Positions 25,756-59,615 of a stretch of 64,000 nucleotides of DNA are shown here, in pieces. The stretch lies in the NCBI RefSeq assembly GCF_963667135.1, contig NZ_OY762974.1:2728001-2792000 (forward strand). Reading direction: 5' to 3'. Under the pieces are notes generated by a model. The model was not told the origin of the DNA. It made no database searches and saw only the letters and a program-made list of their open reading frames with translations. Source of the DNA: an uncultured Macellibacteroides sp. Its GTDB lineage: Bacteria > Bacteroidota > Bacteroidia > Bacteroidales > Tannerellaceae. The position numbers and the translations under genes are program-made. Position 1 is the stretch's first letter. Each line of letters opens with the position of its first letter.

Positions 25756-25790
25756 CAAATGTGGCTTAGTATAGTGATGGAGTAAAGGAC
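25756..25790 (-). promoter_or_regulatory. Late promoter, lysis unit
   Basis: GTCCTTT (25784-25790), exactly 20 bp, then CACATTTG (25756-25763), 18 bp before the ATG. One of six such promoters in the prophage. The upstream T-run is shared with the preceding terminator. Confidence 0.7.
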
Positions 25791-25818
25791 AAAAAAAGCC
25801 CGCCGGAGTGTGGCGGGC
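25791..25818 (-). terminator. Terminator of tail unit, abutting late promoter
   Basis: GCCCGCC and GGCGGGC stem followed by seven T on the minus strand, which run straight into GTCCTTT. Confidence 0.85.
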
Positions 25819-25826
25819 CGATTGAT

Positions 25827-27563
25827 TTACGCTTCGTCGAACAGCCGGGATTGCCTTAGTTCAATGTTTTCGGTGCGAATGGTATCGTTTGCCAGGAGGG
25901 TGATATCTATCTTATCAATGAAGTAAGGTTGGTTGTTTATCATTACCTTTTCTTCCCATTTTAAACCAACTATATCTTGCTGAGTAAGGATAAATTCTCC
26001 TTTAAATATTTGGTTTGCGTGCTTCAGAAAATTGTTGTGTTCCTGGTAATATGTACGGAATAACCCACGAGAACTAATCCACTCGAGGGAAAGATTTCCT
26101 AGCTGTAAATCGCCGGTACCTGGATTTGTATTTAGGTTGGCTCCAAACGGTGATCCGGTTGGTTTTCTTTTTCCCAGGGAAGGTACTGTATACCCTGATG
26201 TGAATGAAATAGGAACAAATCCCTGGGCAAAACAGAAGGCTATAGGACATGATACGTTGCTTGCTTCGGTAGTTGAACCTGATTCTGTATCTACCGTTTT
26301 TTCTATGTTCTTTTGCTCTACTGAAAAGTAAGGATAATATTGGTTGACGTAATCGAGGGTTGTGTAATAAGACGCATCTATCATGGAGATGGATTCGTCT
26401 AAAGTTGTAATATCAATTTCCTCATTATCGGATGTATCGGAAAAAGAGAAATAGGCCGTGCTTTTTATCTCAAGAGCTCCGGTACTACGCCTACGGGCAA
26501 ACCATCCGTATTTTTTTACATAAGAAATTGTTTCGCTTCCATTTACAAGTTCTGCGTACCCTAACACTTCATTGGCATCGGTGGCAAGCCATTGCCGATA
26601 GTTTGCAAATGCCGGAGCTGCTTTATCTAAAGATGTTCCGGATGATAACCTTAGTTTTTGTGCCGTGCTAAATGTTGGGTATAGTTTTTCGTTTAATTTA
26701 CGACTCCAGTCTTTTGTTGCGAGCGCGTTGTGCATATCCTTAAGAAATACGCAGCGTATGGATCGTTTATTGTAGTCTAAAATAAACCGGCAGCCGAACT
26801 TATCTTCGACACAGGTTTGCAGCTCTAGCGCTGAGACATCCGGAACTAGATTTTCGTATTTAAGCCAGCCGACATCGATGGGACTGGATGCATTGTTTAG
26901 GAGTACTATTTTGCGTAATTCACCTGAAGCAAAAGGGTTGTTGGAGTGACTTAGGTCAAAATAGGAATAGACGCTTGAAAGAACATAATGAAGATAAAGA
27001 AAAGGGGTGTATCCTGTATACTTTTTCCCGTCTCTTGTTCCGTACGTGCCATCGGAATCTGCCATGTTTTTGATCTGGAATTCGACGTTCCCGTTGGTAT
27101 CAGTAATCTTTGTACATAGCTCGAATGCGGAATACTCGCCATTATCGGTGCTTACGCTTGTGGTAAGATCGACAAAAAAATCGGGAGTTGTGGTTACCAT
27201 TGGATAGTGGGTTTTCTTTGTTACAATCTGATTAAGCTGTATCTTATCCAATGTGTCGTAAAAATCGCCTTCGGAAAGTGTGATATCGAACTCTATTCCG
27301 CTATCGGAAATACTTTGCATTATTGCTGTTCCATACAGAGCTATAATTCCACAAGTTATGGTACAAGGGAGTTCTGAGCCAATCCTTACGCGACGTTCCG
27401 GACGGTTTGGGTAACCAAGCTGCTTTAGGTTGGCGGGCGTGGCCGGTAATGTGATTCCAATACCAAAACTTCCATTATCGTTAAATATGGGATTGATAAG
27501 TGAAAGCGATATCTCTGTGTCCGGACTAATGGCCATGGACATATTTCCTAGTTGTATTTTCAT
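25827..27563 (-). CDS. Tail tip / baseplate-like protein (putative)
   Basis: A 578-residue protein directly after the tape-measure gene (stop and start overlap by 1 bp), the position of distal tail or tail-hub proteins in long-tailed phages. The N-terminus is beta-rich with repeated short hydrophobic strands (IQLGNMSMAI, SFGIGITLP); the middle has aromatic-rich stretches. I recognise no enzymatic motif. A receptor-facing or hub role is inferred from order only. A strong terminator follows. Confidence 0.5.
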   Translation of the reverse strand: MKIQLGNMSMAISPDTEISLSLINPIFNDNGSFGIGITLPATPANLKQLGYPNRPERRVRIGSELPCTITCGIIALYGTAIMQSISDSGIEFDITLSEGDFYDTLDKIQLNQIVTKKTHYPMVTTTPDFFVDLTTSVSTDNGEYSAFELCTKITDTNGNVEFQIKNMADSDGTYGTRDGKKYTGYTPFLYLHYVLSSVYSYFDLSHSNNPFASGELRKIVLLNNASSPIDVGWLKYENLVPDVSALELQTCVEDKFGCRFILDYNKRSIRCVFLKDMHNALATKDWSRKLNEKLYPTFSTAQKLRLSSGTSLDKAAPAFANYRQWLATDANEVLGYAELVNGSETISYVKKYGWFARRRSTGALEIKSTAYFSFSDTSDNEEIDITTLDESISMIDASYYTTLDYVNQYYPYFSVEQKNIEKTVDTESGSTTEASNVSCPIAFCFAQGFVPISFTSGYTVPSLGKRKPTGSPFGANLNTNPGTGDLQLGNLSLEWISSRGLFRTYYQEHNNFLKHANQIFKGEFILTQQDIVGLKWEEKVMINNQPYFIDKIDITLLANDTIRTENIELRQSRLFDEA

Positions 27564-30166
27564 TATTTTCGGCTTGTTTTTATGCGAATATTATTAGCTC
27601 TGTTTACCGATTTCTCAATGTGACCATATTTGATGGTTACTCCTTTCTTCTCGAGGCTGGAAAGAAGAGAAATAAGGCGGTTGTTTAATCGTTTTGTTTC
27701 CGGATCCGGAACATTGGCATTGGATGCACTTCCGGAAATTTGAGTTATCTGATCGTACTTTCCTTCGGCACGTTGAAAGACACGGCGATCGCGGGCGTCG
27801 TTGATTGCCTGAACCATGATTGGATAACGGATATCCTTCTTTAGCATTTCCATATCCGGAGTGGAAATAATTAGTTCGCCACCGTGTTCGCTAATTAAAG
27901 AGGGGTTTTCGATAATTCCGGATTGAGGCGTTCCGATATAGGGTACGTTCCGGTACTGATGACCGTCTGTTGATCCGATAACGTCGTACTTTCCTTCGGC
28001 GCGCTGGGGAACGATGGTGTTTACTGTTCCTTGGGATGTAGTACTGGAGGTTGAACTTTCGGAGCCAATGTTACCGACCATACTCCCTACTACTGATTTG
28101 ACTGCGGCGAAAGCAGCCTCGATAAGCCCGGTTAGAATTGCTGCACGTGCAAGCCCAGCTGCTCCAAAGGTTAAAATGGAGTCTGGAGTTGCAAGGGATT
28201 GCATTGTCGCGCCGGCAATAGCCATTTGTGCTTGTACTTTTAGATAGTCCAGACCCATATTAATAATGGAAACCATCGATTGTTTTATCATATCATCGTT
28301 TCCGGCCAGTGCTCCGCCAATGATTCCACCCATTTCGGTAGAGAATGCGGTGGCGAGTTGTACCATCTCCTGGCGTTGCTTAAGCTCGAGTTCTTTTTCT
28401 TTGGCGTACTCTGCCTGTTTAATCTTAAGGTTCTGCTCAGAGATTTTCTTAAGATTCTCTGATTCTTTTTTCTGAATTGAAGTGATAGAAATTTCCTTTG
28501 CCTTTTCCAACTCTACCCCTTTAATGGAAAATTGTTCGCGCATTTTTATGGCGTAGTCGGCTATTTTTTGTTCGATTTCCTTGCGCTTGCTTTCTTCCAG
28601 TCCATAGATGGATAACTTACGCCTAAGGCTTTCAAGTTCAAGTTCCTCGATCTGCTTGTTGTAATTAGATTTATCAATCAGGCCTCCGGCATATTGTTTA
28701 GCCAGGGCAATCTTTTCATCTGCGATACCTTGATCTACAGATTTTACTTTATCTTCAATGGCTTTTTTATTGGCTTCAGTTTGTTTTTTCCGGGATTCGA
28801 TAGCCTCTTTTGCCGACTGATCGGCCATTTCTTTTATGGTAGAACTCACACTTGTTTGAACCTTGCGAAGCCCTGTTGTTGTTTTGATGTCGATCTGGTC
28901 TAAATTTACCATAGAATCGACAAAGGCGCTTACGAGTGTATCGTTTCCTTTATTGTATTTTGACACAATACGATAGGCCTCTTCTATTCCTGGAGTACTT
29001 TTTACAATGTTGTCTATCTGCTTTCTGATCGATGCCGTTTCTTTTTCCATTGAAGCGGTATTTGATAGCGATGAACCAAACATTCCGGATCCACCGGAAT
29101 ATGATTGTACCCTGGCATTCTTTAATTTCTTTTCTAGTTCGATCCGTTCGTTCGCAGCTAATATTGCTTCTCGATTTCCTTCGTAGTTTTCGATGAAATA
29201 TTTGCGTTCAGCTTCGGTCATTCCTGTGATTGATTCGAGCTGTTTTGTTGCAGCTTCGATTTTTTGATTAGCAATGCTTTTTTCTTGTTCGGCCTGTTGG
29301 TTGGTAAGTTTAATGATTTGATCGCCGATTGCCTTACGTTCTTCAAGAGACTTATTTGCATCACGTAGTGAGGTTTTAAGTTCTTCGATTTCGGCCTGGA
29401 CGCGAGTGTCGGTAATACGAAAGGAGTTTTGACGTTCGAACAATTCATCCAGTATATTTGTAACTTCTTTACCTACTGTGTACGCTTTTGCCAGGTTATC
29501 CAGAAAGTTTGAAAAGTCCATTGTTGCCAGTGATACCCGAACATAAGTCAATGCATTGTTCAGTCCACCGAGGACGGCTGCAAAAGCATCGCCAGTTGCA
29601 TTGTTGCTGTTTATAATCTTTTCTAAAGAGAATAGCTCTGTTACGACGGCTGCTGCCTTTGTTGCATAGTTTATGAGTAGGCCAACACCGGTAGCTTTTA
29701 CCGCATTAAAATCGAATAAAGTTCGTTCGGCACTTTTTGTGTTTGTTTTTAAAGTGCCCATCTGATCTTTTGTGGCCTTTAGTTCTTTATCAAGCCGTGC
29801 GTATTCTTCAGGTTGGAGAGCTTTTGCAGTTGAATTTAATTGCCGTTCGAGTTCCTGGGCACGTTTCTTAAGCTGGCCCATGGTCATGTTTTCCAGTCCG
29901 AGCGTTTTTTCGTGTTGTGATATCTTTTGGCGGTTGATTTCGAGCGCATCATTATTTTGCTTAAGGGATTTATTGAGGTTATTCCACTCCGAGGTATTTT
30001 TCTTTCCCTGTTCTTCTAGCTCGCGCATGCGAAGACGGGTATCTTTATTCGATTTTTCTAACTCCTTATTTTCTTTTGCAAGGTCGTTTATAGACTTTTG
30101 TGCCCCGCTAGCATCAAGTGATAGGATGAGCTTGATTTCGTCGTCTGTGAGTCTTGATTTGGCCAT
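27563..30166 (-). CDS. Tail tape-measure protein
   Basis: An 867-residue protein with the typical tape-measure make-up: long charged coiled coils (about 20-140, 255-480 and 485-610), then a Gly/Ala-rich hydrophobic region near 625-715 (GGIIGGALAG, MAIAGATMQ, SVVGSMVGN) that may insert into the host membrane, and a polar C-terminus. Tape-measure length sets tail length; this predicts a fairly short flexible tail. It lies 3 bp after the preceding gene. Confidence 0.88.
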   Translation of the reverse strand: MAKSRLTDDEIKLILSLDASGAQKSINDLAKENKELEKSNKDTRLRMRELEEQGKKNTSEWNNLNKSLKQNNDALEINRQKISQHEKTLGLENMTMGQLKKRAQELERQLNSTAKALQPEEYARLDKELKATKDQMGTLKTNTKSAERTLFDFNAVKATGVGLLINYATKAAAVVTELFSLEKIINSNNATGDAFAAVLGGLNNALTYVRVSLATMDFSNFLDNLAKAYTVGKEVTNILDELFERQNSFRITDTRVQAEIEELKTSLRDANKSLEERKAIGDQIIKLTNQQAEQEKSIANQKIEAATKQLESITGMTEAERKYFIENYEGNREAILAANERIELEKKLKNARVQSYSGGSGMFGSSLSNTASMEKETASIRKQIDNIVKSTPGIEEAYRIVSKYNKGNDTLVSAFVDSMVNLDQIDIKTTTGLRKVQTSVSSTIKEMADQSAKEAIESRKKQTEANKKAIEDKVKSVDQGIADEKIALAKQYAGGLIDKSNYNKQIEELELESLRRKLSIYGLEESKRKEIEQKIADYAIKMREQFSIKGVELEKAKEISITSIQKKESENLKKISEQNLKIKQAEYAKEKELELKQRQEMVQLATAFSTEMGGIIGGALAGNDDMIKQSMVSIINMGLDYLKVQAQMAIAGATMQSLATPDSILTFGAAGLARAAILTGLIEAAFAAVKSVVGSMVGNIGSESSTSSTTSQGTVNTIVPQRAEGKYDVIGSTDGHQYRNVPYIGTPQSGIIENPSLISEHGGELIISTPDMEMLKKDIRYPIMVQAINDARDRRVFQRAEGKYDQITQISGSASNANVPDPETKRLNNRLISLLSSLEKKGVTIKYGHIEKSVNRANNIRIKTSRK

Positions 30167-30169
30167 GAT

Positions 30170-30634: not shown

Positions 30635-30649
30635 GATCGGCTTTTTTAG

Positions 30650-30684
30650 CGAAATTACAGAGGTAGGATAGGAGGGGAAAGGAC
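30650..30684 (-). promoter_or_regulatory. Late promoter, tape-measure unit
   Basis: GTCCTTT (30678-30684), exactly 20 bp, TAATTTCG (30650-30657). The preceding T-run belongs to the terminator at 30685-30727. Confidence 0.75.
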
Positions 30685-30727: not shown

Positions 30728-30732
30728 GGTAG

Positions 30733-33359: not shown

Positions 33360-35090
33360 ATGACCACTTATTTAGACATCTTTAAAAGCAGTAAACCTTT
33401 GATTGAAAAGTATGGAATCAATAAAGCTTATTTGGTATGGGTTATGGGATTGTATTTAGATTATTCAGAATTAAATGAGCTTGCAGACGAAAGCCTAACC
33501 GATGATACTAATGATAAAAAAATTGATTTTATTCGAATTGATTATGATAACAAAAAAATTGTCTTCGTTCAAGGTTACTTTTCTGAAAGAAAAATTGATG
33601 CCGCTCCATCAAATAAAGCTAGTGATTTAAATACTGCTGCAGCTTGGTTAATTTCAGGAAATATAGATGACATTCCTTCTCCCTTAAAGGAAATTATTAA
33701 AAATGCTAGAGAGGTTATATCAAGTAATGAAATTGAACAAATAGAATTATTGTATTTACATAATTTGCCTGAATCGGTTAATGTCGCTAAAGAGCTAAAA
33801 ACTGTAAAAGATCATTTGGAAAATGTATTAGCTAGCGATTCAATTACTGTAGTTTCTAAAGAGCTAGGTCTAAAAGAAACGCAATATTTATTTGATGAAC
33901 AATCTTCACAAATCATTATTAATGAATTAATTAATTGTCCTGCTAAGATTGAATTTGAAGAATCTGGTGATGGATGGAGTTCCGGAATAATGTCAGTACC
34001 AGGAGCTTGGTTAAGGCAACAGTATATTCAATATCAAGACAAATTATTTTCAGCAAACTACAGAGGGTTTTTAGGTATTTCGAAAAGAAAAAGAATAAAT
34101 ACAGGAATTAAAAGCACCGCAGAAAAGAAATCCACTAATTTTTGGGCGTATAATAATGGCATTACAATTTTAACTCATAATTATGAAAAGAAAGTCGGAA
34201 ATACGATTTTAACGGGAATGTCTATTATAAACGGTGCTCAAACAACAGGTTCTATTGGATCGCTAGATAGTACGATTAGTTTAGATGGAGTAAGGGTCTT
34301 GACACGAATAATAAAATGCAGTGATAGAACAACTATAGATGATATTGTTAAATTTAATAATACACAAAATAAAATAACAACTTGGGATAAGTTTAGTAAT
34401 GATACTAAACAGCTATCTTTATTGTCAGAGTTTACAAAACTAGGGCATGATTATAGCTTTAAAAGAGGATTTTCTAATAAAGAAGCTGAAATTAGTATAG
34501 AAAACAGTATGCAACCACTTATAGCATTTATTAGCAATTTTAATGATGCTAATAGAGGGAAAAATTCTTTATTTGAAAATGATAAGGCTTATAAAAATGC
34601 TTTTGAAGATGTTAAAGCAAGGCATATACTTCTTGTACATTGCATTAATAAGGCAATTGATAACATTAGGTTTAATTTAAAATTAAAGAAAAAACAAGGT
34701 ACAGATATTACGAATGATGACGAATTTATGCTAACCTTATTCACAAATCTAAGATTTAAGTTTTTTTTAATTGCAGTAGTTGGAGCTTCTATGGAAACAT
34801 TAATGGGGCGGCAGATTAATTTAAAATATTTATCCTTAACAAATGAATTTTCATATAAAAGCAATAAGGGTATTAATGATATAGTTGTGTCTATTCAGCC
34901 CATTATTGAAGTTATTCTTACTTTTACCTCAAAATATCTTGAAGGTAAAAATTACACAGAGCTCTTGAGGCAAGATGAAACATTAACTGATGTTTCTAAA
35001 CATGTTTCTTCGATGATTAATGCATCTAAAGTAATACCTGGTATGACTAACCAAATACAGGAATTTGCAAAACTCATATCAATAGAATGA
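33360..35090 (+). CDS. AIPR-family abortive-infection phage-resistance protein
   Basis: A 576-residue member of the AIPR family (abortive infection phage resistance). The signature block is FWAYNNGIT (261-269) followed by INGAQTT (290-296). The N-terminal part has strand-rich DFIRIDYDNKKIVFVQGYFS (about 56-75), which recalls the core of PD-(D/E)XK nucleases (Asp then Gln-Gly-Tyr), although the catalytic Lys is not clearly placed. It has its own promoter and terminator and is A/T-rich compared with phage genes. It is cargo, not a phage structural gene; the family is linked to abortive infection, the exact activity is unproven. Confidence 0.85.
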   Translation: MTTYLDIFKSSKPLIEKYGINKAYLVWVMGLYLDYSELNELADESLTDDTNDKKIDFIRIDYDNKKIVFVQGYFSERKIDAAPSNKASDLNTAAAWLISGNIDDIPSPLKEIIKNAREVISSNEIEQIELLYLHNLPESVNVAKELKTVKDHLENVLASDSITVVSKELGLKETQYLFDEQSSQIIINELINCPAKIEFEESGDGWSSGIMSVPGAWLRQQYIQYQDKLFSANYRGFLGISKRKRINTGIKSTAEKKSTNFWAYNNGITILTHNYEKKVGNTILTGMSIINGAQTTGSIGSLDSTISLDGVRVLTRIIKCSDRTTIDDIVKFNNTQNKITTWDKFSNDTKQLSLLSEFTKLGHDYSFKRGFSNKEAEISIENSMQPLIAFISNFNDANRGKNSLFENDKAYKNAFEDVKARHILLVHCINKAIDNIRFNLKLKKKQGTDITNDDEFMLTLFTNLRFKFFLIAVVGASMETLMGRQINLKYLSLTNEFSYKSNKGINDIVVSIQPIIEVILTFTSKYLEGKNYTELLRQDETLTDVSKHVSSMINASKVIPGMTNQIQEFAKLISIE

Positions 35091-40391: not shown

Positions 40392-41401
40392 AGCGAGTCG
40401 ATTTGTGAGATTGATAAATTGAGTAATGCGGGGAGTTCTTCCTTTTTAACGCCTTTCCCCAGGGCATCGGATATTGTTTTCTTGAGTGACTTTACCTGAG
40501 CATCGAAAAAGGTGATCACGGATTGATTGCTCATCTCGTCTATACCTCCGAAACCTGTTAATGACAGTTGCAGGATTGATTCGGAAAGGCCTAGGCTAAT
40601 GCGGTCCGGATTATCATTTTTTGATCCGTTAAACAGCAAAGAATATACCGGGTGATTGACAAAGTAGGATGTGACTCCGGTAAACCATAGGTACACTGCA
40701 TAACGCACAATGAACGGAACCCGTGTAAACCGTTCGTGATAGTTGCTGTTTACGGCATTTGCATGGCTATAATTACCAGGATAAAGAATAGCGCAAAGGT
40801 GGTTTAGTAACCGGGCATCCTGTGATTGGGCAAACGCGCGACTGATATCGAATGCATCGGCAAACTGACGGGCGGTGATATTTGTCTGCGTAATAATTCC
40901 GATATTGAAATACACCCCCCGGACCTTTTTTGTCCGGATCCTGATAAAAGGAATAGGGTTCCGAAGCATCATTGTGTTGATGATGGTTTGATCGTTTTCC
41001 TGACGCCAGGGAAATGCTATTTTTTCGGACAAGGCAACGAGGTTGTGGGTTATGTTCTCGCGAAGCTGGCTTTCTGTTTCCGGTTCCGGCCGGCTATTCC
41101 TGATCCAGTTATGCATAAGCGATTTGTAGGCGCTTTTTTTATAGAATAAGCGGTACCGGATGGCTGCTATTTGCATCCGTGAGTAGTAGATGCTTTTTGA
41201 TGGCCATACGCAGACGAGTTTACGCGTTGGCTGATAACCGGTATATTTTATTAGTAGCAGTATCCGGACGTCGAGCTTTGAAAGTTGGCCCTGTATATGG
41301 TTAATCAGCACCTGAATGGTATAAAGAAATTGCTTGCGCGTGAGGGATTCCCAGCTGTTGGGAATCTGAAGCGTACGGGTTTGTAATTTGATTTGGATCA
41401 T
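40385..41401 (-). CDS. Hypothetical phage protein
   Basis: A 338-residue basic protein rich in Arg, Ile and aromatic residues, mostly helical. No known motif. It lies between two other unknown genes downstream of the portal and starts 3 bp after the preceding stop. Possibly a connector or assembly factor. Confidence 0.6.
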   Translation of the reverse strand: MIQIKLQTRTLQIPNSWESLTRKQFLYTIQVLINHIQGQLSKLDVRILLLIKYTGYQPTRKLVCVWPSKSIYYSRMQIAAIRYRLFYKKSAYKSLMHNWIRNSRPEPETESQLRENITHNLVALSEKIAFPWRQENDQTIINTMMLRNPIPFIRIRTKKVRGVYFNIGIITQTNITARQFADAFDISRAFAQSQDARLLNHLCAILYPGNYSHANAVNSNYHERFTRVPFIVRYAVYLWFTGVTSYFVNHPVYSLLFNGSKNDNPDRISLGLSESILQLSLTGFGGIDEMSNQSVITFFDAQVKSLKKTISDALGKGVKKEELPALLNLSISQIDSLC

Positions 41402-41404
41402 GGC

Positions 41405-42321: not shown

Positions 42322-43911
42322 TTAGTTATTTATGTTATTGGCCGGACGGTCGGCCGGAGTTGTTTCTTGTTGTTTTGCCGGTACATCAATTTGAAGCCCA
42401 AGTTTGATGCCTTGCTCTTTTACGCGAGGAAAGTTCATCCGGATTGCCCGGTTAAGGTCTTTCGTTACGTGATGTTCGGGGATGGTTAGAGCAATGGCAT
42501 AGATCATGAAATTATAGAATACATCTGATCCGGATTTGCTGATAAGACCATCGGCTTCGACGTTACTTATGCTTGAGTTGATTCCTTTGCCGGCAAGGAT
42601 TACCTGATCGGCCCGCTTATCGTAAGATATGAGCGAATCCAGGTATTCTTTAAATTTGCCGGGGAACTCTTTGAATTCCCAGCCGTCTTCTCCCCATTTG
42701 GTTGTTGCCCATAACTTACCCTGGTTCTTTCCTTCGCCGGAAAGAAAGGTGGTTATTTCTGTTAGTTTGTGGTTGATAAGATCGTCCATCATGCCTTCGT
42801 AGAATTCGTATGGTTCGCTAGTTAAGGGGTCGATAAGTTTTACTCCCTGGAACTCTGCCTGAAGTGGCATACTAGATGAGCCAACCATGTTTTGCCGGCA
42901 AAGGTCTTGCAGGATTTCTTTCATTTTAAGATACCAACTGCCCGGGATAACTACATGTACGTGAGCATTGAGGGCGTTCCTTAAATAAGAATTGATGTAT
43001 TTGGGTGTAAGATTAGACCCTTTTATCCACTCGTACAACCCTTTGAACCACTCGTTGTATGGATATAGTTCTTTGGTGAATGTTTTGCTTTTTACCCAAC
43101 TGATAGCGGTTTCGTACTGGAAGGGATTCTGGATCCGGAGACGGGGATATACTTCGAAGCCTCGTTTACCCGGGTTAAACCAATCGCCAACGAGGATAAA
43201 CTGGCAGTCTTCATTGCGAATAGGTTGACCGGGATGTACCTTTGATCGTAGAACTCCCAGACGGGCCTTTTCGCTGCCTATATAGCTAAGAGCTGCGACA
43301 GGGAGTGTTCCGGTGCTGTTCTTTTTACCTGGAGCGATGATACGCCGGGACCGGGTAAAGTGATATTGAGATATACTTGATAGTACGTGGTAGTAGTCTG
43401 TGATGATATTGATAAGGTATTCCCACACGGATGGATATCCGTTGTCTTCCCAACTTTCTAGCCAGGCTTGTATTTCGGGATCCTGAACCGGGACTCTAGT
43501 TTTTTTCTGGTTTTTGCCTTCGCCAACGATTTCTTCTTTGTACAAGTATGGCCCTTTTCCGAACAAGAACTGGACTTGTTTAGACAAAAGTTCCGGAAGA
43601 AGTTTGTTGTCTGAGATGACGTTGTAGACTTCTTGCGGGTATAGGTTGTGCCCTTCGCCCCACATGGGTACCAGGTAATCGCCCATCTGAATGCCGGTGC
43701 TCTCGGACATGTAGTTTCGGTAGATGTTCCGATATTCTTGATTCATGACTTCGTTTCGCTCGGAAACGCCTTGTACCTCGAAGCTTAGTACTCCTCCGGA
43801 TTTACTCTTAACGACTCCATGGGCACTTCCATATCGGGAAATGGTTATGGGTTCGTTGGTGTCTGAAGTCATGTCGATGACAACAGGTTGTTGTTCTTTA
43901 TTCCTTTTCAT
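42322..43911 (-). CDS. Phage portal protein
   Basis: A 529-residue protein placed as the portal, the dodecameric ring at the packaging vertex. It has a portal-like N-terminal stretch (LLPELLSKQVQFLFGKGP near residue 106), an extended helical middle and a C-terminal helix with Gln/Pro-rich tail. It is not next to the terminase, which is unusual. Overlaps the preceding gene by 14 bp. Confidence 0.75.
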   Translation of the reverse strand: MKRNKEQQPVVIDMTSDTNEPITISRYGSAHGVVKSKSGGVLSFEVQGVSERNEVMNQEYRNIYRNYMSESTGIQMGDYLVPMWGEGHNLYPQEVYNVISDNKLLPELLSKQVQFLFGKGPYLYKEEIVGEGKNQKKTRVPVQDPEIQAWLESWEDNGYPSVWEYLINIITDYYHVLSSISQYHFTRSRRIIAPGKKNSTGTLPVAALSYIGSEKARLGVLRSKVHPGQPIRNEDCQFILVGDWFNPGKRGFEVYPRLRIQNPFQYETAISWVKSKTFTKELYPYNEWFKGLYEWIKGSNLTPKYINSYLRNALNAHVHVVIPGSWYLKMKEILQDLCRQNMVGSSSMPLQAEFQGVKLIDPLTSEPYEFYEGMMDDLINHKLTEITTFLSGEGKNQGKLWATTKWGEDGWEFKEFPGKFKEYLDSLISYDKRADQVILAGKGINSSISNVEADGLISKSGSDVFYNFMIYAIALTIPEHHVTKDLNRAIRMNFPRVKEQGIKLGLQIDVPAKQQETTPADRPANNINN

Positions 43912-44227: not shown

Positions 44228-44232
44228 GGAAA

Positions 44233-44267
44233 CGAAGATATGATGGGTAGGGGTGGGGGGAAAGGAC
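44233..44267 (-). promoter_or_regulatory. Late promoter, portal unit
   Basis: GTCCTTT (44261-44267), exactly 20 bp, TATCTTCG (44233-44240). Decides the start at 44227. Confidence 0.75.
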
Positions 44268-46774: not shown

Positions 46775-49700
46775 TTAATTTATACGTGAATAATTATATT
46801 TTAATTGATCCATTTCCGTTTTTAACTGCTTAATTGCACAGATTAAATGAGGGATAAGCTTGACATAGTCAATTGATTTATATTGCCCTCCGTAGATTGT
46901 ATGTACAAGCTCCGGCTGAACTAACTCTAGTTCTTGCGCTATAAGTCCAAAATCCTGTGAATCATTCTTTAAAGGGTTTAGTCCTTTTGCAATTGAGTTC
47001 CATCTATAAGATACAGGATTCAACAATTCAATAATTCTTAATGAATCTTTTAGAGTAGTAACCTCTGTTTTCAAACGAATATCAGAAGCTGAATAAGCAG
47101 TAACCTCCCCTGATGCCACTATATTTCCGCTGACATATAATTTATGTCCCGAATCCGTTGTAGTCCCAATACTGATATTCCCTGAATCCGCATTTATTAC
47201 CATCTGGGCCAGCCAGCTAAGAGAATTATCAACTCGTCCAAATTGAATACCTCTATCAGTTGCAGCTGCTGAATTTCCCCTTAGACGAATAGCTCCACCG
47301 AAGACATTTGACCTTATAAACCTTGCTGTTTGGTCATTGTAAATTGAAATTGTTTGAGCCTCGATATTTCCGCATTGTATTGTTGCCCAAGACCCAGTAG
47401 CTCTATTATATATATCCAACTTGGCCACGTCTGCATTATGGCTTAAACTAATTCGACTCGTATTGGAACCATTGTATAAGTTTAACCAACCTTCACTAAT
47501 TAAATGAAGCCCTCCGAAAATTCTAGATGTACCATTAACATCAAGTTTATAGCCAGCATCTGTCAATGTATTAATTAACACGTTTCCACCAGAAAAATAG
47601 CTATTACCACCAGCCGCAAAATTTCCATTCACTTTCAATGCTGCTCCAATTCCACTCGCAGGGTCTGCATAAGCTCCAACAGACATATGAGATTCAGACA
47701 CGGTATTAACTCTGTTAGCAGTTAACACACCCACAACTCCGACATTCCCAGCCGCATCAAGGTTTAGTGAATTAGACGTACCCGAACCTAAATAAAGTTT
47801 ATTTTGATAGCCCTGTAAATACCAGTTGTTTGCACCTTCTGTTAGTTTTAAATTCGGATTAGAATTATTATCAGCAATAGAAAAGTAACCTCCTGTTATA
47901 TTCCCTGTTACATTAGTCCCTCCATCAAAGGTCTGTCCCCAAAATGTACGGACATTAGCTAATTTAGTTGCGGAAGCTACATTATCACTCAACATAGCCA
48001 ATGTTCCTGATGTTGTTGGTAAATTTAACACATTGCCACTAGTTCCAAACGCCTGCAATCTCGTTGAATAATCTAATCCATCATTATTTATACTGTGGAA
48101 GTCTATGTATTTGCCTATTTCTATTACTCCGTCTGATGCTACTATTGGAATTTTATTCCAAGCCGAACCACCCAGTATAGCGTGAAAACCATCCAACAAA
48201 TCTGAATTAAAATTCGTAACCACATTCGTATTAGACATAGAACCTCCTGATAAAGGAAGATAGCTATGTGTATGCCCGTCCAACGATAAATTACGACTTA
48301 CCGAATTAATCGAAAGAGGTGTATACTGACTGGTTGAAATTCCCCAAGCCACGTTGGGAGTACTTGTTTCTAAAGCTCCTATTCGTCCTAAAGCAGATGT
48401 AAGGTTATTGTTTATTAGATTTATTGTGTATGCATTAAATGTATTGTTAAGATCGCTATTCAAGTAGCTTCCACCTAAACCTGTACTCCCATAGACAGAA
48501 GATATCAAACCTGATTCACCGCCAGTACTGGAACCTGTACCATAAGCAGACAATTCCCCTGTCGACCAAAAATCTACATCGACTTTTATACGTCCATCTA
48601 CAACATTCAAATGTGAAAGTACATCTATGTGTCCTTGCGTAAGGTTATCAATTACAGCTTTATTTGTATGTGTGTGATTGTTCGAATAGGCTATGTTCCA
48701 ATTTGCGATCTTTGTATTATCCTGTGTCCATTTAGTACCTATCAAGGTAGACATGCTTGTAGCGAAATTAGGATCATTACCTAATGCTGTGGCCAACTCG
48801 TTAAGAGTGTCTAAGGTGGTAGGAGCTGCTCCAATAAGTTCAGTAACCTTCGCATTTACATAAGATTGCGTAGCATACTGGTTTGATGTAAGGTAATTTC
48901 CAAGTGCTAATGTATCTAGCCCGGCTATATCAGATAACAACCGGCTACTCCAGTGTGTTTCACCAGCCAATTGGACCATCACCCGATTCGCTGTAGGGAT
49001 TTCATCGGCCCATGAGCCCACATTCACTAATCCGCCCAATGATCCTGAAGCACCTGAGCCGCCTGATACACCGGCTCCGTAGGCTGAAATTTCGCCTACA
49101 GACCAAAAATCAATGTCTGATTTTAGCCGGCCTTCGATAATTGATAAATGAGATAGAACGTCTATGTTTCCTTGGGTAATCGAATCTATAATGAGTTTAT
49201 TAGAGTGAGAATGTAATGGAGCATTCGGATCAATCCATGGTTTACTCTGAATGATTCCATTTAAGTCATCAAGAATTAACGATCTAATATACTCTGAGAT
49301 TGAACCTAATGTAGATATAGTTGGATCATCGCTATTAGGATCGAAAGCAGGAAAGACCACCCCCTCGCGAAGGAGTACACGAGGAAACTCAGCAAGACGA
49401 GGGGGTATAGTAAAATTTGGCGCATCGGGCACTGGAATTGATATATTAGCAGGCAGTTCGTCTTCGTTCCTGATAAGGTTTAAATAAGGGCTAATGTCTG
49501 CAAAACAATAAGTAAAAGTATAGCTGGAAGGTAGGTCCGATGACTTATATGCAACGTCGCTTTCTTTTACAGCTATTTTATGGATTGCACTTTCTTGATA
49601 GATATACTTTGCCCGGCTTGGAAAGAAATCAAGCAACCAGCGACGTTCGTATTTATTTAGATGGCCTGTGTTTTTTGTGTACAGTCTCTCTGTATCGATC

Positions 49701-50473
49701 CGGTATTCTTCCATCACGTCGTCGATGATTGAACTATTGAAGGTATGTTCTCCCGAAAAATCTGTAACACCGAACGCCCTAAATGTATCGATTCCTCCAA
49801 GGCTATTTTCAAATAGAATCCATTGTTCGTCTTCAGATATTTGATCGGAAACTACATATTTTTGTATATAGCTTAATTGGGATGATCCTGAGTAAGCAGC
49901 AACCTCGTAATATATTGGCTTCTTTCCGGAGAATAGTCCGGAAACAACTGCGTATTGCATGTTGAGAGTATATGCATTACCGGCCGAACAGCTTTGTAGT
50001 GTAACAGTTTCATTGGTGTTGTTAGGGAAAAAGGCTTTAACTTTGATATTGCATGCTATTACCGCGAAATAGGTGATCCATTCCGGAGTATAATTCGTGA
50101 CTTTTTTAAGTTTTGGCTGCCAGGTAAGAAAGTTTCCCTTTAGCCAGTTAGACGGAGTATCGGCCAAGTTGGATATCCCGGTACGAATTGCCCGAAATGA
50201 ATAATCCACGCCATCAATTGAAGCAACAAACATTCGGATGATTGATGGTTGCACATAGGATGTATTGTATTGAAGGACGAAGCTAAGGGCGTTAATAACA
50301 ACGTCTTTTACATCTACTTCCACGATACCGTCGCTCGGATGGTATGTTTCATTTACAAGGATTTCTGTACCTACAGAAAGGGTAAAGTTTAAAGATTCGG
50401 AAGTTGAGACTTTAAATGGCTTAAGGTTGCCACTCAAAGAGAGTTCGTCCGGTTTACTTAGTATTGTTGCCAT
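46775..50473 (-). CDS. Large tail fibre with S74 intramolecular chaperone
   Basis: A 1,232-residue fibre. The N-terminal part (about 1-330) is beta-rich and likely binds the tail; it is followed by repeated adhesin-type stretches, including two copies of a 50-residue module near residues 420 and 600 with HSHSNKLIIDSI-like and HTHTNKAVIDNL-like starts. The C-terminus is a peptidase S74 chaperone: SASDIRLKTEVT with the Ser-Lys dyad, then LLNPVSYRW and FGLIAQELE, which trims itself after trimer assembly. The ATG 50473 is preferred because an upstream in-frame TTG at 50533 lies at the promoter box. Confidence 0.88.
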   Translation of the reverse strand: MATILSKPDELSLSGNLKPFKVSTSESLNFTLSVGTEILVNETYHPSDGIVEVDVKDVVINALSFVLQYNTSYVQPSIIRMFVASIDGVDYSFRAIRTGISNLADTPSNWLKGNFLTWQPKLKKVTNYTPEWITYFAVIACNIKVKAFFPNNTNETVTLQSCSAGNAYTLNMQYAVVSGLFSGKKPIYYEVAAYSGSSQLSYIQKYVVSDQISEDEQWILFENSLGGIDTFRAFGVTDFSGEHTFNSSIIDDVMEEYRIDTERLYTKNTGHLNKYERRWLLDFFPSRAKYIYQESAIHKIAVKESDVAYKSSDLPSSYTFTYCFADISPYLNLIRNEDELPANISIPVPDAPNFTIPPRLAEFPRVLLREGVVFPAFDPNSDDPTISTLGSISEYIRSLILDDLNGIIQSKPWIDPNAPLHSHSNKLIIDSITQGNIDVLSHLSIIEGRLKSDIDFWSVGEISAYGAGVSGGSGASGSLGGLVNVGSWADEIPTANRVMVQLAGETHWSSRLLSDIAGLDTLALGNYLTSNQYATQSYVNAKVTELIGAAPTTLDTLNELATALGNDPNFATSMSTLIGTKWTQDNTKIANWNIAYSNNHTHTNKAVIDNLTQGHIDVLSHLNVVDGRIKVDVDFWSTGELSAYGTGSSTGGESGLISSVYGSTGLGGSYLNSDLNNTFNAYTINLINNNLTSALGRIGALETSTPNVAWGISTSQYTPLSINSVSRNLSLDGHTHSYLPLSGGSMSNTNVVTNFNSDLLDGFHAILGGSAWNKIPIVASDGVIEIGKYIDFHSINNDGLDYSTRLQAFGTSGNVLNLPTTSGTLAMLSDNVASATKLANVRTFWGQTFDGGTNVTGNITGGYFSIADNNSNPNLKLTEGANNWYLQGYQNKLYLGSGTSNSLNLDAAGNVGVVGVLTANRVNTVSESHMSVGAYADPASGIGAALKVNGNFAAGGNSYFSGGNVLINTLTDAGYKLDVNGTSRIFGGLHLISEGWLNLYNGSNTSRISLSHNADVAKLDIYNRATGSWATIQCGNIEAQTISIYNDQTARFIRSNVFGGAIRLRGNSAAATDRGIQFGRVDNSLSWLAQMVINADSGNISIGTTTDSGHKLYVSGNIVASGEVTAYSASDIRLKTEVTTLKDSLRIIELLNPVSYRWNSIAKGLNPLKNDSQDFGLIAQELELVQPELVHTIYGGQYKSIDYVKLIPHLICAIKQLKTEMDQLKYNYSRIN

Positions 50474-50496
50474 GCTATTACTTTCGGTTGTTGAAA

Positions 50497-50531
50497 CGAA
50501 AGTAATGGAGATAAGATAGGAGGGAAAGGAC
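50497..50531 (-). promoter_or_regulatory. Late promoter, fibre unit
   Basis: GTCCTTT (50525-50531), exactly 20 bp, TACTTTCG (50497-50504), 23 bp before ATG 50473. Fused to the preceding terminator's T-run. Confidence 0.8.
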
Positions 50532-50568: not shown

Positions 50569-52290
50569 TTATCGACTATATGTACCTGAAGAATTTGGCA
50601 TACTGTCTAGAACATTACCCTCAGGAAGTATTTTTTTGTATTCACCGTAAATGAGGTATGTGAACGCTGAAAATATTTGAGTGCTGTACATGGCTTGTTC
50701 TTCGTACGGAAGTTCACGTTCACTACTTTTATCTAAAACGATTCTTCCCTCTGTCCTCTTTAGTGGAGAGTGGTTAATGCTGCTTATAAGTTCTTCGCAT
50801 TCGTTATTGCAGATTTCTATTTCATCATGAATATCATCTGGCTTTCCGAACATGATATTTAATAATTTATAGTGTGTGCCATAGAAGATAGTGCCCTGGC
50901 CTATTGACATGAGTATTACCCGCCATCCCTTTGCTACCAGGGCATTTCTTAACATCACAGCATCTGTGTCGTTTACGTCTGTCATCAATGGATAGTACTT
51001 TCTGTATGCCGGGTCATTTTGGTTGGCAGCACGGTCGTAATGCAGAATGATTTCTTTTCTGGAATGATGTTTGAAAAAGGTATCTATCTTATGTGCAAGT
51101 TCCTCGTGTTGCTCTGGATGAATCACCCACATATTTTTGATCGTTTTCATTTTTTTATTTCTCTTTCCTGGTATTGTTTTCTTTTGGCCGAACACTATAC
51201 TCATAAATGGGCCAGGATCGAATCCTGCGTATAATGGTTGGTTCCGATCGCAATGCTTAAGGCTTAAACTATTTGTTTCTGTCTTTTCTCCGGCAATGGC
51301 TATGTTATCAAAGTTGGAATAATCGTAACTATCATCAAAGATGTGTTCCTTTCCAAACTTACCTACAAAACGAGTTTTAACTTTGTTTTTTCTTACTGAA
51401 AAAATGGATGTATTTAATTTGTCTTCATCTTTAATTGATTTAATCTGATTTAGAATATAGTCGATGCCCAGAATTTTAATGTTTGAAAAAGACGATGCTC
51501 TAAGATAGAAAGTTTCTCCAGTTCTGAGTTCTCGTATTCGGGTTGTCCATCTCTCAACAAATTGCCTTAATTTTTTTATTTCTTTTTCATTATAAGCTTT
51601 TTCTGCAAGAGCCAATTCTACTAGTCTTAAATCCAGCTCGTAGGACATCTCCTGAATGCAATGGATCAAGTCAATATCCATGTTGCTTTCGTACTTTGTC
51701 CACCAATCTTCGTCTGTCTCGAAATTTGGAGTTGAAGAGAATCCGGTTATACCCATAAAATAGGGACTATGTCCAAACTTTGACCTGTCAGCACGAAGAG
51801 CAGGAATAATACGTTCTGTGAACTTTTGTTCCGGGATCCGGATAAGCTCATCAGCAAATAAGTGGGCTGCGTTCTTCCCAAGCATAGACTCTGGTCGATC
51901 GCATGATACAAACTGGAGAACAGAACCATCACAGAAAGAGAATGTTTGTTTCCAATCATCTATGTACGTAGCACACTGCTTAAAGTGTGCTGGGGGTTTC
52001 TTGCCTGCTTCAAAATAAATACCGCGTTCGTAATTTTCCATGAAATATTCCATAAGTCCAGGGAGAATATTATCGAAGATGCTTTTGAAAGTGGATGCCC
52101 CAAGTACCAGGACGGAACCCGGCATATCATTTTGTACCCGGTCCATTCGTGGTCCCATCATGTGAGTTGTTTTTCCAGAACCACGACCGACTTCACCAAA
52201 CAAGAATGTTGGGTCTGCAAGCTTCATCAATATCTGTACAACAGACAGGTATTCTTCTTTAAATAATTCCAAATCTGTTTTATTGGCCAT
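50569..52290 (-). CDS. terL: Terminase large subunit
   Basis: The packaging ATPase-nuclease, 573 residues. The N-terminal ATPase has Walker A GEVGRGSGKT (32-41) and a Walker B-like HLFADE near residue 145. The C-terminal RNase-H-like nuclease has LYAGFDPGPF near residue 355 and the acidic VNDTDAVM region. It drives DNA into the head through the portal. It overlaps the end of the upstream gene by 11 bp. A strong terminator follows. Confidence 0.92.
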   Translation of the reverse strand: MANKTDLELFKEEYLSVVQILMKLADPTFLFGEVGRGSGKTTHMMGPRMDRVQNDMPGSVLVLGASTFKSIFDNILPGLMEYFMENYERGIYFEAGKKPPAHFKQCATYIDDWKQTFSFCDGSVLQFVSCDRPESMLGKNAAHLFADELIRIPEQKFTERIIPALRADRSKFGHSPYFMGITGFSSTPNFETDEDWWTKYESNMDIDLIHCIQEMSYELDLRLVELALAEKAYNEKEIKKLRQFVERWTTRIRELRTGETFYLRASSFSNIKILGIDYILNQIKSIKDEDKLNTSIFSVRKNKVKTRFVGKFGKEHIFDDSYDYSNFDNIAIAGEKTETNSLSLKHCDRNQPLYAGFDPGPFMSIVFGQKKTIPGKRNKKMKTIKNMWVIHPEQHEELAHKIDTFFKHHSRKEIILHYDRAANQNDPAYRKYYPLMTDVNDTDAVMLRNALVAKGWRVILMSIGQGTIFYGTHYKLLNIMFGKPDDIHDEIEICNNECEELISSINHSPLKRTEGRIVLDKSSERELPYEEQAMYSTQIFSAFTYLIYGEYKKILPEGNVLDSMPNSSGTYSR

Positions 52291-54611: not shown

Positions 54612-54627
54612 ACGAATTTGTTTGTAA

Positions 54628-54662
54628 CAAAGAAAGCAGAGTATAACATGATGATAAAGGAC
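54628..54662 (-). promoter_or_regulatory. Late promoter, packaging unit (weakest copy)
   Basis: GTCCTTT (54656-54662), exactly 20 bp, TTTCTTTG (54628-54635). The T-run before the box is missing here. Confidence 0.6.
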
Positions 54663-54680
54663 GAATAGCATCCGTATCAA

Positions 54681-54963: not shown

Positions 54964-54992
54964 AAAAAATCCACGGCCTTAGCTGTGGATTC
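54964..54992 (-). terminator. Terminator after tail-chaperone genes
   Basis: ATCCAC and GTGGAT arms followed by T6 on the minus strand. Confidence 0.8.
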
Positions 54993-54996
54993 AAAT

Positions 54997-55976: not shown

Positions 55977-56038
55977 ATTGATGGGATTTAAAAAGGCACA
56001 GCTTTTTAGTGCTGTGCCCTGGTTATTTACTCAATGAT

Positions 56039-56551: not shown

Positions 56552-56626
56552 ATTGGTATGAATTGATTTGGATTATTATAAGCACCGGGATTTTGCCCGG
56601 TGCTGTGAGGATATAACAGAGACAGA

Positions 56627-58663
56627 TTACGCGGTTGCGTATGCCTTACGTTCAAGTTCCAGGAAGTTGCCGGTTGAACGAGTTTTCTTTACAGTTTCGC
56701 CGTCGATGGTTTCGGTGTAGTCTTCCAGTTCTGCATATAGCTTGATGTAATCGCCTACGTTTGCAGGGGTCCACGCTGATGCTATTTTTGCAAACTTACC
56801 TGATTTTGCAATTGTGGTTTTATTTGCTCCAGCTTCACCACATACAATTTTATAAACGGTCTCGATTGAGGCGTTCTCAATGTCTGTGATTGCTGTGGCT
56901 GCAGTGTTTGCTGCTGTTTCGAAAGTACTGTTAATGCGACCATTAACCTTAGTTGCGTTGGCCGCAAGAACTGTGACGGGATAGTTTGTAAAGATGTACT
57001 GACTTTCGCGTCCGGAAGATGTTAGAAGAGCCAGTGTTTTATACTGGATACCGGCCATCAATAATCCAGAACCTTCTTTCCAGCGAGAACGTACGGTAAT
57101 GTCTTCGAAGTCTTGTTCGAAGTCGAACATGTGCATCTCGTTGGGCTTATCTTCATAAAGCTCAACATTACCAGGAGTGGTGATCCACATTTTGCAGTTC
57201 GACATTGGCATATTCGGAATCCATACGATCGTTTCGGGAGAAACGTCCTGAAGTCCTTCTTTAACACCAGTGAAATCGTTATCCTTTCCATACTTATCCC
57301 GGAACCAACGGGTGTACCACTTTTTGTGTTTTGCGTTGATGTGCAACTTAAGGCCTTCCATGGTTGGGAGAATCTCTTCGACACTATCCCACAATGTTTC
57401 GGCATATTCGCCGATGGTCGTTTCGTCGTATAAGCGCATGTCTTTGAATGGGAGAACTTTGAGTTCTTCTTCTACGCGTTCGATTGCACGAAGGGCACCG
57501 TCTGCGCCAAGCATGGCAGGGTTAGACACAACGTCTTGCTGTGGTGTACGTACTCCAACAACGCGACGACGGTTCTGTTCGTTGATCAAAATTTCACCGA
57601 AATGAGACATAATCCATTCGATGAATGTCCATTTGATTGGGTTTGATCCTTCGCGGTTCATGTAACCGATGTACTGCTTTTCAAGCTTGATCATGTCGGT
57701 AAACTTGAACTTGAACATCAAATCGATCACCTGGTAAATTTCGGCAGTGAATGAGGCTGAACCTTTGAAGATTCTACCTGAACGATGTCCCTGAGAAAGT
57801 TCGCCAAAGTAAGCACCCGGTGATGTTGCTTTGTTTTGGATACCACTAACAAGCGGGAAAATATTCGTTACTGAAGGTAAGCTACGAAGATATGCGATAA
57901 CCATATCTGTACGACGGGTTACAAATTCGCCCAGTTTTCCAGTAACTTCGGAATAATCGATGCTTGGTTCGCCGGATGCCATTTGCTTGAAATCCAAAGC
58001 GGAAAGCTGATTTGATTCATGTAATTGTTTGGCTCGATCGCGGAAGTTGCTTGCAAATTGTTTGAAGGCAGTACGGAAGGCTTCTTTCTGATCTGAATTC
58101 AGGTCGTCTACTTCTACTTCCTTACGGGTAACTGTTAGGTCTGTCCACCAGTTTCCCCGGGCAAAGAGTTTATCTTCGATGCCAAACAGATGGGTAGGAG
58201 TATGAGCAGTACGGCCCATAACCATGGCCATGGCACGTACAGACATTTCGGGGGATGCTCCAACAACTGCTACAGGCGCCCCATCTTCTGGTTTGTTTGC
58301 TAACTGCTGGATAGTTTTTTGTTGTTGTTTAGCAGTTTTTGTTAGGGCTGTAACTGCTTGTTTCTGTGTAGTAGGTTTTGGTTCGCCTTCGCCATTGCCT
58401 GCGTCAGAACCTTCGCCACCTTCTTCATCGGTTTTTGAAGCTGCGATGATGTCAAGAATTTCCTGTTGCATCTCCTGGGATAAGGCAGGGTCTTCGGAGT
58501 CTTCGTCTGCAGCGCGATCTTCCTCAAAGGTTACTCCGTGTTCTTTTTTGTAATCGGAACAAAATGACTTCCAATCATCTGAAGTCATATCCTTTGATTT
58601 GATTTTGGACGTGAGGTCTAATTTTTTGAGTATCTGTTCTACTCTTACTTGCCACTTTTTCAT
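56627..58663 (-). CDS. Major capsid protein with N-terminal scaffold-like region
   Basis: A 678-residue protein with a charged, low-complexity N-terminus (about 1-130; Glu/Asp and Gln/Lys runs) that fits a cleavable delta/scaffold region, followed by a capsid-like body (from about 140: MVMGRTAHTPTHLFG, and later EWIMSHFGEILINEQNRR). It follows the S49-type protease that would cut it. Longer than HK97 gp5, but large fused capsid genes are common in this host group. Confidence 0.78.
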   Translation of the reverse strand: MKKWQVRVEQILKKLDLTSKIKSKDMTSDDWKSFCSDYKKEHGVTFEEDRAADEDSEDPALSQEMQQEILDIIAASKTDEEGGEGSDAGNGEGEPKPTTQKQAVTALTKTAKQQQKTIQQLANKPEDGAPVAVVGASPEMSVRAMAMVMGRTAHTPTHLFGIEDKLFARGNWWTDLTVTRKEVEVDDLNSDQKEAFRTAFKQFASNFRDRAKQLHESNQLSALDFKQMASGEPSIDYSEVTGKLGEFVTRRTDMVIAYLRSLPSVTNIFPLVSGIQNKATSPGAYFGELSQGHRSGRIFKGSASFTAEIYQVIDLMFKFKFTDMIKLEKQYIGYMNREGSNPIKWTFIEWIMSHFGEILINEQNRRRVVGVRTPQQDVVSNPAMLGADGALRAIERVEEELKVLPFKDMRLYDETTIGEYAETLWDSVEEILPTMEGLKLHINAKHKKWYTRWFRDKYGKDNDFTGVKEGLQDVSPETIVWIPNMPMSNCKMWITTPGNVELYEDKPNEMHMFDFEQDFEDITVRSRWKEGSGLLMAGIQYKTLALLTSSGRESQYIFTNYPVTVLAANATKVNGRINSTFETAANTAATAITDIENASIETVYKIVCGEAGANKTTIAKSGKFAKIASAWTPANVGDYIKLYAELEDYTETIDGETVKKTRSTGNFLELERKAYATA

Positions 58664-58674
58664 ACGGTTGAATT

Positions 58675-59562
58675 TTAGTTGAATGAATAAATTGATTTTC
58701 TGTTGTCGCTGATCCTCTTGACTTCGGCTACGGCCTGATCGAGGTTCATGATTCGATCTACGAGGTTATATTTTACTGCATCGCGGGCATAAAATACTTT
58801 GCCTTCGATAATGCCTTCAACGCCTAAATCGAGATTAGGTCTGTTTGCTTTAATTATGTTTTGGAAGTGAATGGCAAAAGGAGAGAGCTGCTCTTCAATA
58901 AGTCTTTTTGTATCACCTTCAATAGCTTCGCGGAGCTCAAGATTTTTAAATTTGCTTTCAGGAGGATAGACTTCGACTGTTTTGATTCCGTACTTTTCGT
59001 CTGATTTTGTGAAGTCCATAAACTTTGCCATGACTCCAATGCTTCCGATTTCGCACATGGGATTAATTGCGCCTACGATATCACAAAATGAGATAGCGTA
59101 GCATGCTCCGGAGTTTGCTGATCCTTCGATAAGGCCAACGCAGGTTTTAGTGCGGTTACGCATTGCATCCTCTAGTTGAAAGATTGAAGAAGTTGAACCA
59201 CCAGGTGAATCGGTAAGAAGAATTGTTCCGATTATTTTGTTTGATTTATCGGCCAGGCGAATGAGGTTTGCAAGATCGTCTACTCCGGCACGCCACCAAT
59301 TGCCATATTTTGTCATAAATCCGGAAAGAGGAATTATTGCAATTGTATCGTCAGGGTATTCGTCGTACGGGTTGTATGACGGTTCGTCCTGATGATCAGA
59401 ATACATAAACGTACCCCGATTGCTAAATACTTGTTTTTTTTGTTCGGGAAGTTTTACTGGTTGCCCGTTTAGGATTCTTTCGGCGATAAGCGAAAGAGCT
59501 ACCCGACCGCTATTATGGAGCATAAGTGGGCTAAGTAGTTCCTGAAGGTATAGTTCTAACAT
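58675..59562 (-). CDS. Head-maturation protease (S49/SppA-like)
   Basis: A 295-residue ClpP-fold serine protease, placed to cut the capsid's N-terminal region. Motifs: TDSPGGSTSS near residue 106 and ANSGACYAIS near residue 137, with the Ser nucleophile in SGACY and a Lys downstream, as in SppA. The ATG at 59562 is used since the promoter -7 box is at 59581-59588; an in-frame TTG at 59583 lies within it. The region 59549-59588 holds a 12-bp inverted pair that may shape the leader. Confidence 0.85.
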   Translation of the reverse strand: MLELYLQELLSPLMLHNSGRVALSLIAERILNGQPVKLPEQKKQVFSNRGTFMYSDHQDEPSYNPYDEYPDDTIAIIPLSGFMTKYGNWWRAGVDDLANLIRLADKSNKIIGTILLTDSPGGSTSSIFQLEDAMRNRTKTCVGLIEGSANSGACYAISFCDIVGAINPMCEIGSIGVMAKFMDFTKSDEKYGIKTVEVYPPESKFKNLELREAIEGDTKRLIEEQLSPFAIHFQNIIKANRPNLDLGVEGIIEGKVFYARDAVKYNLVDRIMNLDQAVAEVKRISDNRKSIYSFN

Positions 59563-59592
59563 TGCGCGATGAATTTTACACAATGTTAGAAC
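59549..59592. repeat. 12-bp inverted repeat around head-unit start
   Basis: GTTCTAACATTG and CAATGTTAGAAC, about 16 bp apart, overlapping the -7 box and the protease start. Could be an operator or a leader hairpin. Confidence 0.55.
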
Positions 59593-59615
59593 TATATAAA
59601 GGGGTGGGAAAGGAC
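59581..59615 (-). promoter_or_regulatory. Late promoter, head unit
   Basis: GTCCTTT (59609-59615), exactly 20 bp, TAACATTG (59581-59588), about 18 bp before the ATG. Confidence 0.75.

Follow-up and report, generated by a model that had tools for sequence, protein, structure and literature searches.

The DNA analysed here (the window) is a 64,000-nucleotide stretch of contig NZ_OY762974.1 from an uncultured Macellibacteroides sp., and it carries a prophage in which six copies of the heptamer GTCCTTT, each followed after 20 bp by a -7-type promoter box, stand on the minus strand ahead of structural, packaging and lysis genes. The prophage seems to begin at a tRNA-Gln (22916) beside an integrase gene (23139..24314, plus strand), a pair that possibly represents the attachment site (22916-24314), and it extends rightwards beyond the end of the window, where small helix-turn-helix (HTH) protein genes and an HTH gene on the opposite strand are found. 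Its terminase is related to those of the Duneviridae, with 28–30% sequence identity to the enzymes of phages 6H, laban6-1 and Ingeline; the prophage is not assigned to that family here. Directly ahead of the first putative late promoter lies the gene for a 148-aa protein, here called ACT (60113..60559, minus strand), which is a candidate late activator.

Six boxes and the genes they precede

Read leftwards along the minus strand, box 1 (59609..59615; -7 box TAACATTG at 59581-59588; predicted +1 at 59576) precedes the head maturation protease (PHROG 53; listed as 58675..59583, likely start ATG 59562) and the major capsid protein (56627..58663; homologues so annotated in Porphyromonas gingivalis phages), and its counterpart is also found upstream of the head protease in relatives. 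Box 2 (54656..54662; TTTCTTTG at 54628-54635; +1 predicted at 54623) heads the ParB-methyltransferase/terminase unit, a cluster that is likewise preceded by a box in relatives and that includes the terminase large subunit (50569..52290; homologues annotated as terminase, GRGSGKT-type motif). The tail fibre gene (46775..50500) is headed by box 3 (50525..50531; TACTTTCG at 50497-50504; predicted +1 at 50492), and the portal unit by box 4 (44261..44267; TATCTTCG at 44233-44240), whose predicted start at 44228 and ATG at 44227 would make the transcript leaderless or nearly so. The portal protein itself (42322..43911) was assigned by its cluster, found in 25/25 phages, and by gene order, and P. gingivalis phage019b has a portal annotated at the equivalent place. 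Box 5 (30678..30684; TAATTTCG at 30650-30657; predicted +1 at 30645) heads a neck-like open reading frame (ORF) and the tape measure gene (27563..30166; PHROG 25337), while box 6 (25784..25790; CACATTTG at 25756-25763; predicted +1 at 25751) heads the lysis unit with its endolysin (24822..25379; PHROG 435). Gene annotation thus agrees with the original prediction that every box heads a late unit (head, packaging, fibre, portal, tape measure or lysis) and that early and cargo genes lack it, the latter comprising replication, methyltransferase and Abi-like cargo genes as well as the prophage genes just right of the window. The units are labelled late on account of the genes served, and late timing of their expression is predicted. 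One of the cargo genes, encoding an Abi-alpha-like abortive infection protein (33360-35090, plus strand; PHROG 1841), is located amid the late units.

A tentative, degenerate seventh member of the series (60024..60058, minus strand), GTCCATT-N20-TAAAATAG, is found upstream of the ORF at 59619-59999 and could be a chance occurrence; in some relatives, a GTCCTTT followed by a poor -7 box stands at about this position. At two of the six promoters, a second, reverse-complemented copy of the -7 box lies around the start codon or ahead of it (TAACATTG...CAATGTTA at 59550-59595 and TACTTTCG...CGAAAGTA at 50479-50504), and relatives show inverted -7 forms resembling that of the head promoter. These inverted repeats are possibly an operator.

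The bare heptamer occurs in the window at the frequency expected by chance (10 observed, 10.05 expected; six on the minus strand and four, without a -7 box, on the plus strand), and the finding therefore stands on the composite of box, spacing and -7 box. On the minus strand of 24337-64000, six GTCCTTT copies have a -7-like box and all six have it at spacing 20; none was found at spacings 14-19 or 21-26, nor at all on the plus strand of the same region. In 1000 order-1 Markov shuffles the composite motif appeared 0.015 times on average and at most once. The left coordinates, strand, spacing and -7 boxes originally read for the six sites were all correct, as was the extension of the box to TTTTTGTCCTTT, which is present at four of the six sites; a following CCC is likewise seen at four of the six. 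As to the fit of the -7 boxes to the consensus, only three of the six are strict TAnnTTYG boxes and the other three are looser. The strict form GTCCTTT-N20-TAnnTTYG has three matches in the 4.46 Mb genome of the same organism, all inside this prophage.

According to passages of PMC7366714 and PMC9723704, the sigma-ABfr promoter of Bacteroidetes comprises TTTG at about -33 and TAnnTTTG at -7, the flavobacterial -7 box being placed at -12 to -5 in a section of PMC9723704. We aligned 201 unique GTCCTTT sites, chosen by the exact box, a spacing of 20 and a relaxed -7 rule; their -7 box centres on TAnnTTTG and fits the sigma-ABfr -7 element, a profile that the selection partly imposed. An A is enriched five bases 3' of the -7 box (137/201 sites), and T is enriched upstream of the heptamer. 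With this A taken as +1, the -7 box falls at -12 to -5 and GTCCTTT at -39 to -33, and the heptamer appears to take the place of the -33 TTTG at about these positions. A G directly after GTCCTTT, as the sigma-ABfr -33 TTTG would have it, is rare among the aligned sites (13/201) and found at none of the six sites of the window, in line with the earlier claim that the normal -33 element is replaced. The distance from the -7 box to the ATG is bimodal (195 sites), with one mode at 4 nt, where the ATG lies at the predicted +1 of a leaderless transcript, and another at about 15-22 nt; for Bacteroidota, parts of PMC7366714 and PMC9723704 give 3.7% of 5' untranslated regions as shorter than 10 nt and 5.5% of mRNAs as leaderless.

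Terminator-like hairpins with T runs, identified by eye, stand just before three of the six boxes. Together with the fact that Q-type proteins bind near promoters, this would suit a scheme in which ACT does not act in initiation but, like Q, is loaded at the promoter and makes polymerase read through terminators. We regard this scheme as unlikely, since the box sits in the place of a -33 element that is itself absent, keeps a rigid spacing to the -7 box, and is found at six dispersed promoters and not at one.

Conservation and lineage-wise variation of the box

A search of related prophages, which had been proposed as a check, found the box and its 20-bp spacing recurring before late units. 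Ten viral contigs selected by their head protease yielded 17 listed GTCCTTT-N(19-21)-TAnnTTTG sites in nine contigs (15 distinct sites, as three near-identical contigs share one), and every site had spacing 20 although 19-21 was allowed; the reversed control gave none. Loci with a homologous protease or terminase were also surveyed for all 7-mers at offsets 10-34 from TAnnTTTG; GTCCTTT at spacing 20 was the top combination, accounting for 28/28 near and 8/9 far sites, with the remaining far site at 18. Terminase-chosen contigs searched whole with TAnnTTYG contained a match in 14 of 15 cases, all sites having spacing 20 save one (19), and in six additional genome records there were 13 exact sites, on a single strand and all at spacing 20. 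Contigs found by scanning for the motif are circular with respect to spacing, and what was taken from them is limited to strand, position and gene content; at least 10 of the 80 listed stretches had two or more matches, against none of the 80 listed for a scrambled heptamer. Across the spacing-20 sites, a set partly chosen by motif, 91 had the exact heptamer and 25 a one-mismatch variant.

Among named phages, all box sites were at spacing 20 in Bacteroides phage BT-TP2 (three), P. gingivalis phages 019b and 026a (four and three, respectively), Cellulophaga phage Ingeline_1 (five) and the faecal phage record MT835542 (three). In 019b the boxes precede the prohead protease, the portal unit, a neck gene and a later tail-region gene. 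The Duneviridae phages (6H, laban6-1 and Ingeline), the P. gingivalis prophages and BT-TP2 share a homologous terminase, an ACT homologue and boxes ahead of late units. The BT-TP2 record additionally has a reverse transcriptase annotated after the tail-side genes (40959-42254), as in a diversity-generating retroelement. No description of this box, or of late switching in temperate Bacteroidota phages, was found in the open papers searched, and a term search of papers on such phages did not return the word 'promoter'.

The box differs between lineages, while the spacing of 20 is kept. GTCCTCT occurs four times in contig G417, which has no strict GTCCTTT promoter; GTCTTTT is found three times in G366, twice in G393 and three times in G387; GTCCTAT occurs four times in G626, and G770 has three GTCCTA boxes. 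Flavobacterium phage laban6-1 has five GTCACAA boxes at spacing 20, and four GTCTTAA repeats were seen in phage 6H, at a distance that, judged by eye, varies by one. The three GTCTTTT phages fall, on a quick ACT tree with long branches, into one five-row clade (SH-aLRT 100) among GTCCTTT lineages, so that the shift to GTCTTTT counts as one change on this tree. As boxes change together within single phages, a co-evolving phage protein would be expected as their reader and a host reader would not, and the grouping of the GTCTTTT phages is what a co-evolving phage factor predicts. The four G417 sites read GTCCTCTTAA and the box of Ingeline_1 reads GTCCTTTTAA; the ACT proteins of the two group together, which suggests a longer recognition site in this branch. 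In several phages (G004, G005, G009, G010, G405, G418, G420, G422, G423, G427, G451 and BT-TP2), the promoter nearest ACT is often degenerate (GTCATTT, GTCTTTT, GTCTTTG, GTCTTTC or GTCCTTC) while GTCCTTT stands at the remaining sites of that phage; the degenerate boxes perhaps serve weaker or ordered expression.

That the sites are merely ordinary promoters with chance T-rich -33 regions beside terminators is a reading to which we give next to no weight. The chance-level heptamer count and the T enrichment upstream of the box would agree with it, but it does not account for an exact heptamer at a single spacing in diverged phages, for the rarity of the composite in the shuffled window and its replication in further records, or for the laban6-1 boxes, which have lost TTT and yet kept GTC.

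The original prediction would have been undermined by a motif as common in host DNA, and this was examined in 295 host genomes of the order. Strict GTCCTTT-N20-TAnnTTTG was matched 106 times, in 70 genomes, whereas its reversed control had about 248 matches; the composite motif is therefore not enriched in host genomes, and the prediction withstood the comparison. In host genomes with a related terminase, the matches can adjoin the terminase gene (G018, with three, G154 and G303). The counts indicate that the box is not a host promoter class. They also bear on the possibility that a host factor, such as an alternative sigma or a host activator, reads the box and is merely exploited by the phages. 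A slowly evolving reader of this kind would suit a near-invariant heptamer accompanied by strongly diverged ACT proteins (about 15–35% identity), but the motif does not exceed its control in host DNA, the three strict matches of the window's own genome all lie in the prophage, and within single phages the box is altered at more than one site at once. We consider a host reader improbable, if slightly less so than the other contenders.

ACT as candidate reader of the box

The original prediction postulated a dedicated phage factor, and such a factor is supported by the retention of the box at late genes of diverged phages, by its absence as a class from host DNA and by the presence of a regulator candidate in most phages. 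Based on gene content and position, the ORF at 60113-60559 (ACT) is likely this previously unnamed factor. In 25 phages, the ACT family was the only protein so widely common outside the late units, integrase aside; simple clustering detected it in 17/25, and an iterative profile search in 30/32 contigs of an enlarged set, the last members being drawn in weakly and G452 being doubtful. All 11 fetched host prophages that had been chosen solely by terminase encode ACT, and nine of them have GTCCTTT sites. Over all records, 202 box sites are on the ACT strand and four on the opposite one, and within 9 kb of ACT there are 77 sites downstream (613,476 bp) and two upstream (365,542 bp), the first box typically following ACT by some 400-600 bp.

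ACT has no consistent match in Pfam, NCBIfam or PHROG, and the window protein has none in Pfam at E up to 1; it lacks a GerE HTH, the GerE protein of this phage being a different gene. The BT-TP2 homologue is annotated as a transcriptional regulator in its record, which states no basis. In the structure models (pLDDT 90.7 and 93.2), two C-terminal helices come after a long central one; in the window protein they are predicted at 110-120 and 128-147, the second being basic, and arginine 137 is kept in 82/82 aligned homologues, a few of them near duplicates. ACT homologues from GTCCTTT phages share only about 15–35% identity with the window protein.

Another phage protein could instead be the reader. 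The early-region LuxR/GerE-like small protein, encoded right of the window (genome 2794149-2794520), also matches sigma-70 region 4, and a protein of this kind is annotated in the three fetched Duneviridae phages and in Polaribacter phage Leef_1; LuxR-like proteins were, however, found in just 18/39 phages. The 126-aa ORF that separates ACT from the head promoter (59619..59999, minus strand) belongs to a cluster present in 12/25 phages. The terminase small subunit, like other structural and packaging genes, is itself downstream of late promoters. A reader among these proteins is about as doubtful as antitermination by ACT.

A nearly blind test was offered by Leef_1 (of another family, Helgolandviridae), which was picked by fold: a Foldseek search of viral models matched the ACT model to one Leef_1 protein (E 9.3e-5, TM 0.71/0.67), and in this genome the ACT homologue, at 29520-29993 (E 3.4e-24), lies ahead of the head protease. 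Each of the six GTCCTTT copies on the Leef_1 coding strand is located ahead of a late unit (genes at 511, 1878, 2515, 10572, 30708 and 34630), while coding-strand shuffles gave 1.46 copies with a maximum of five; two more copies are on the other strand. Polaribacter phage Freya_1, a single control from another family without an ACT match, has no GTCCTTT on the coding strand and four on the other.

Several observations weigh against ACT as the reader of a late promoter box. The -7 regions of Leef_1 at spacing 20 are weak, with only TATACTTG passing the relaxed rule and two reading CATCTTGC. Among 35 fetched genome regions selected by ACT, 13 have no clear box or recurrent variant, some of them being long, while 19 have GTCCTTT at spacing 20 (12 of these just once) and three a recurrent variant. 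G442 has two box sites and no detectable ACT. GTCTTTT is also a minority box in GTCCTTT phages, often nearest ACT, and the terminase might show the same clades as ACT, so the clade pattern alone does not prove ACT to be the reader. Mixed boxes, as in G303 and others, and the weak Leef_1 -7 boxes lowered our confidence slightly.

Proposed mechanism and comparison with known promoters

We propose that a temperate Bacteroidales phage uses the six sites as its late promoters, each of which would retain the -7 box read by the sigma-ABfr of the host (at about -12 to -5) and have GTCCTTT instead of the -33 TTTG. Because of this replacement, host RNA polymerase by itself should use such promoters poorly. 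An early-side phage protein, most likely ACT, would bind the box via its C-terminal helical region and provide sigma or polymerase with the upstream contact that these promoters lack, so that the units for head, packaging, fibre, portal, tail and lysis are turned on jointly. We hold with good confidence that these are late promoters with GTCCTTT in place of the -33 element, read by a phage protein that is most likely ACT acting as an activator. Somewhat less firmly, though still on balance favoured, we suggest a late-transcription code across temperate phages of Bacteroidota (hosts from Bacteroidales and Flavobacteriales were seen), in which an undescribed family of ACT activators takes over the sigma -33 contact at a rigid 20-bp spacing, and in which lineage-specific boxes (GTCCTTT, GTCTTTT, GTCCTCT, GTCCTAT, GTCACAA and perhaps GTCTTAA) co-evolve with the protein around an unchanging GTC core.

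With a box and a candidate protein in hand, the late switch of gut, oral and marine Bacteroidota phages becomes readily testable. Late operons of uncultured phages could be read from sequence, ACT could serve to mark phages of this group, and the lineage-wise box variants form a natural series for protein-DNA specificity. The system may also yield an expression switch of phage origin for use in Bacteroides genetics.

The proposed promoters resemble sigma-ABfr promoters in the -7 box and its position at -12 to -5, and differ from them in that the -33 TTTG is replaced by GTCCTTT or a lineage variant; the Duneviridae phages 6H and laban6-1 have such variant boxes, unlike the prophage in the window. 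In the middle promoters of T4, where MotA and AsiA appropriate sigma, a phage box replaces the -35 element and a -10-type box stays. The arrangement described here is similar, with a phage box in the -35/-33 place and a -10/-7-type box retained, but it serves late and not middle genes, and the hosts are unrelated; no AsiA-like partner was identified, no search having been aimed at one. The late promoters of Mu, according to passages of PMC4461284, are several and dispersed, have non-consensus -10 and -35 elements, and are contacted by a phage activator at or next to -35. Like the late promoters of Mu C (and Mor), those of the window are several and dispersed, with a phage activator predicted to make contact near -35/-33; unlike Mu, they have a Bacteroidota host with TAnnTTTG and a short heptamer at fixed spacing, in a phage that carries an integrase. 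The Mor/C family was not among the best 25 of 29 Pfam matches (E up to 1) for 38 ACT members. Taken together, the six boxes most likely constitute a real late regulon that would work like the promoters of Mu C or T4 MotA, without being assigned to either family.

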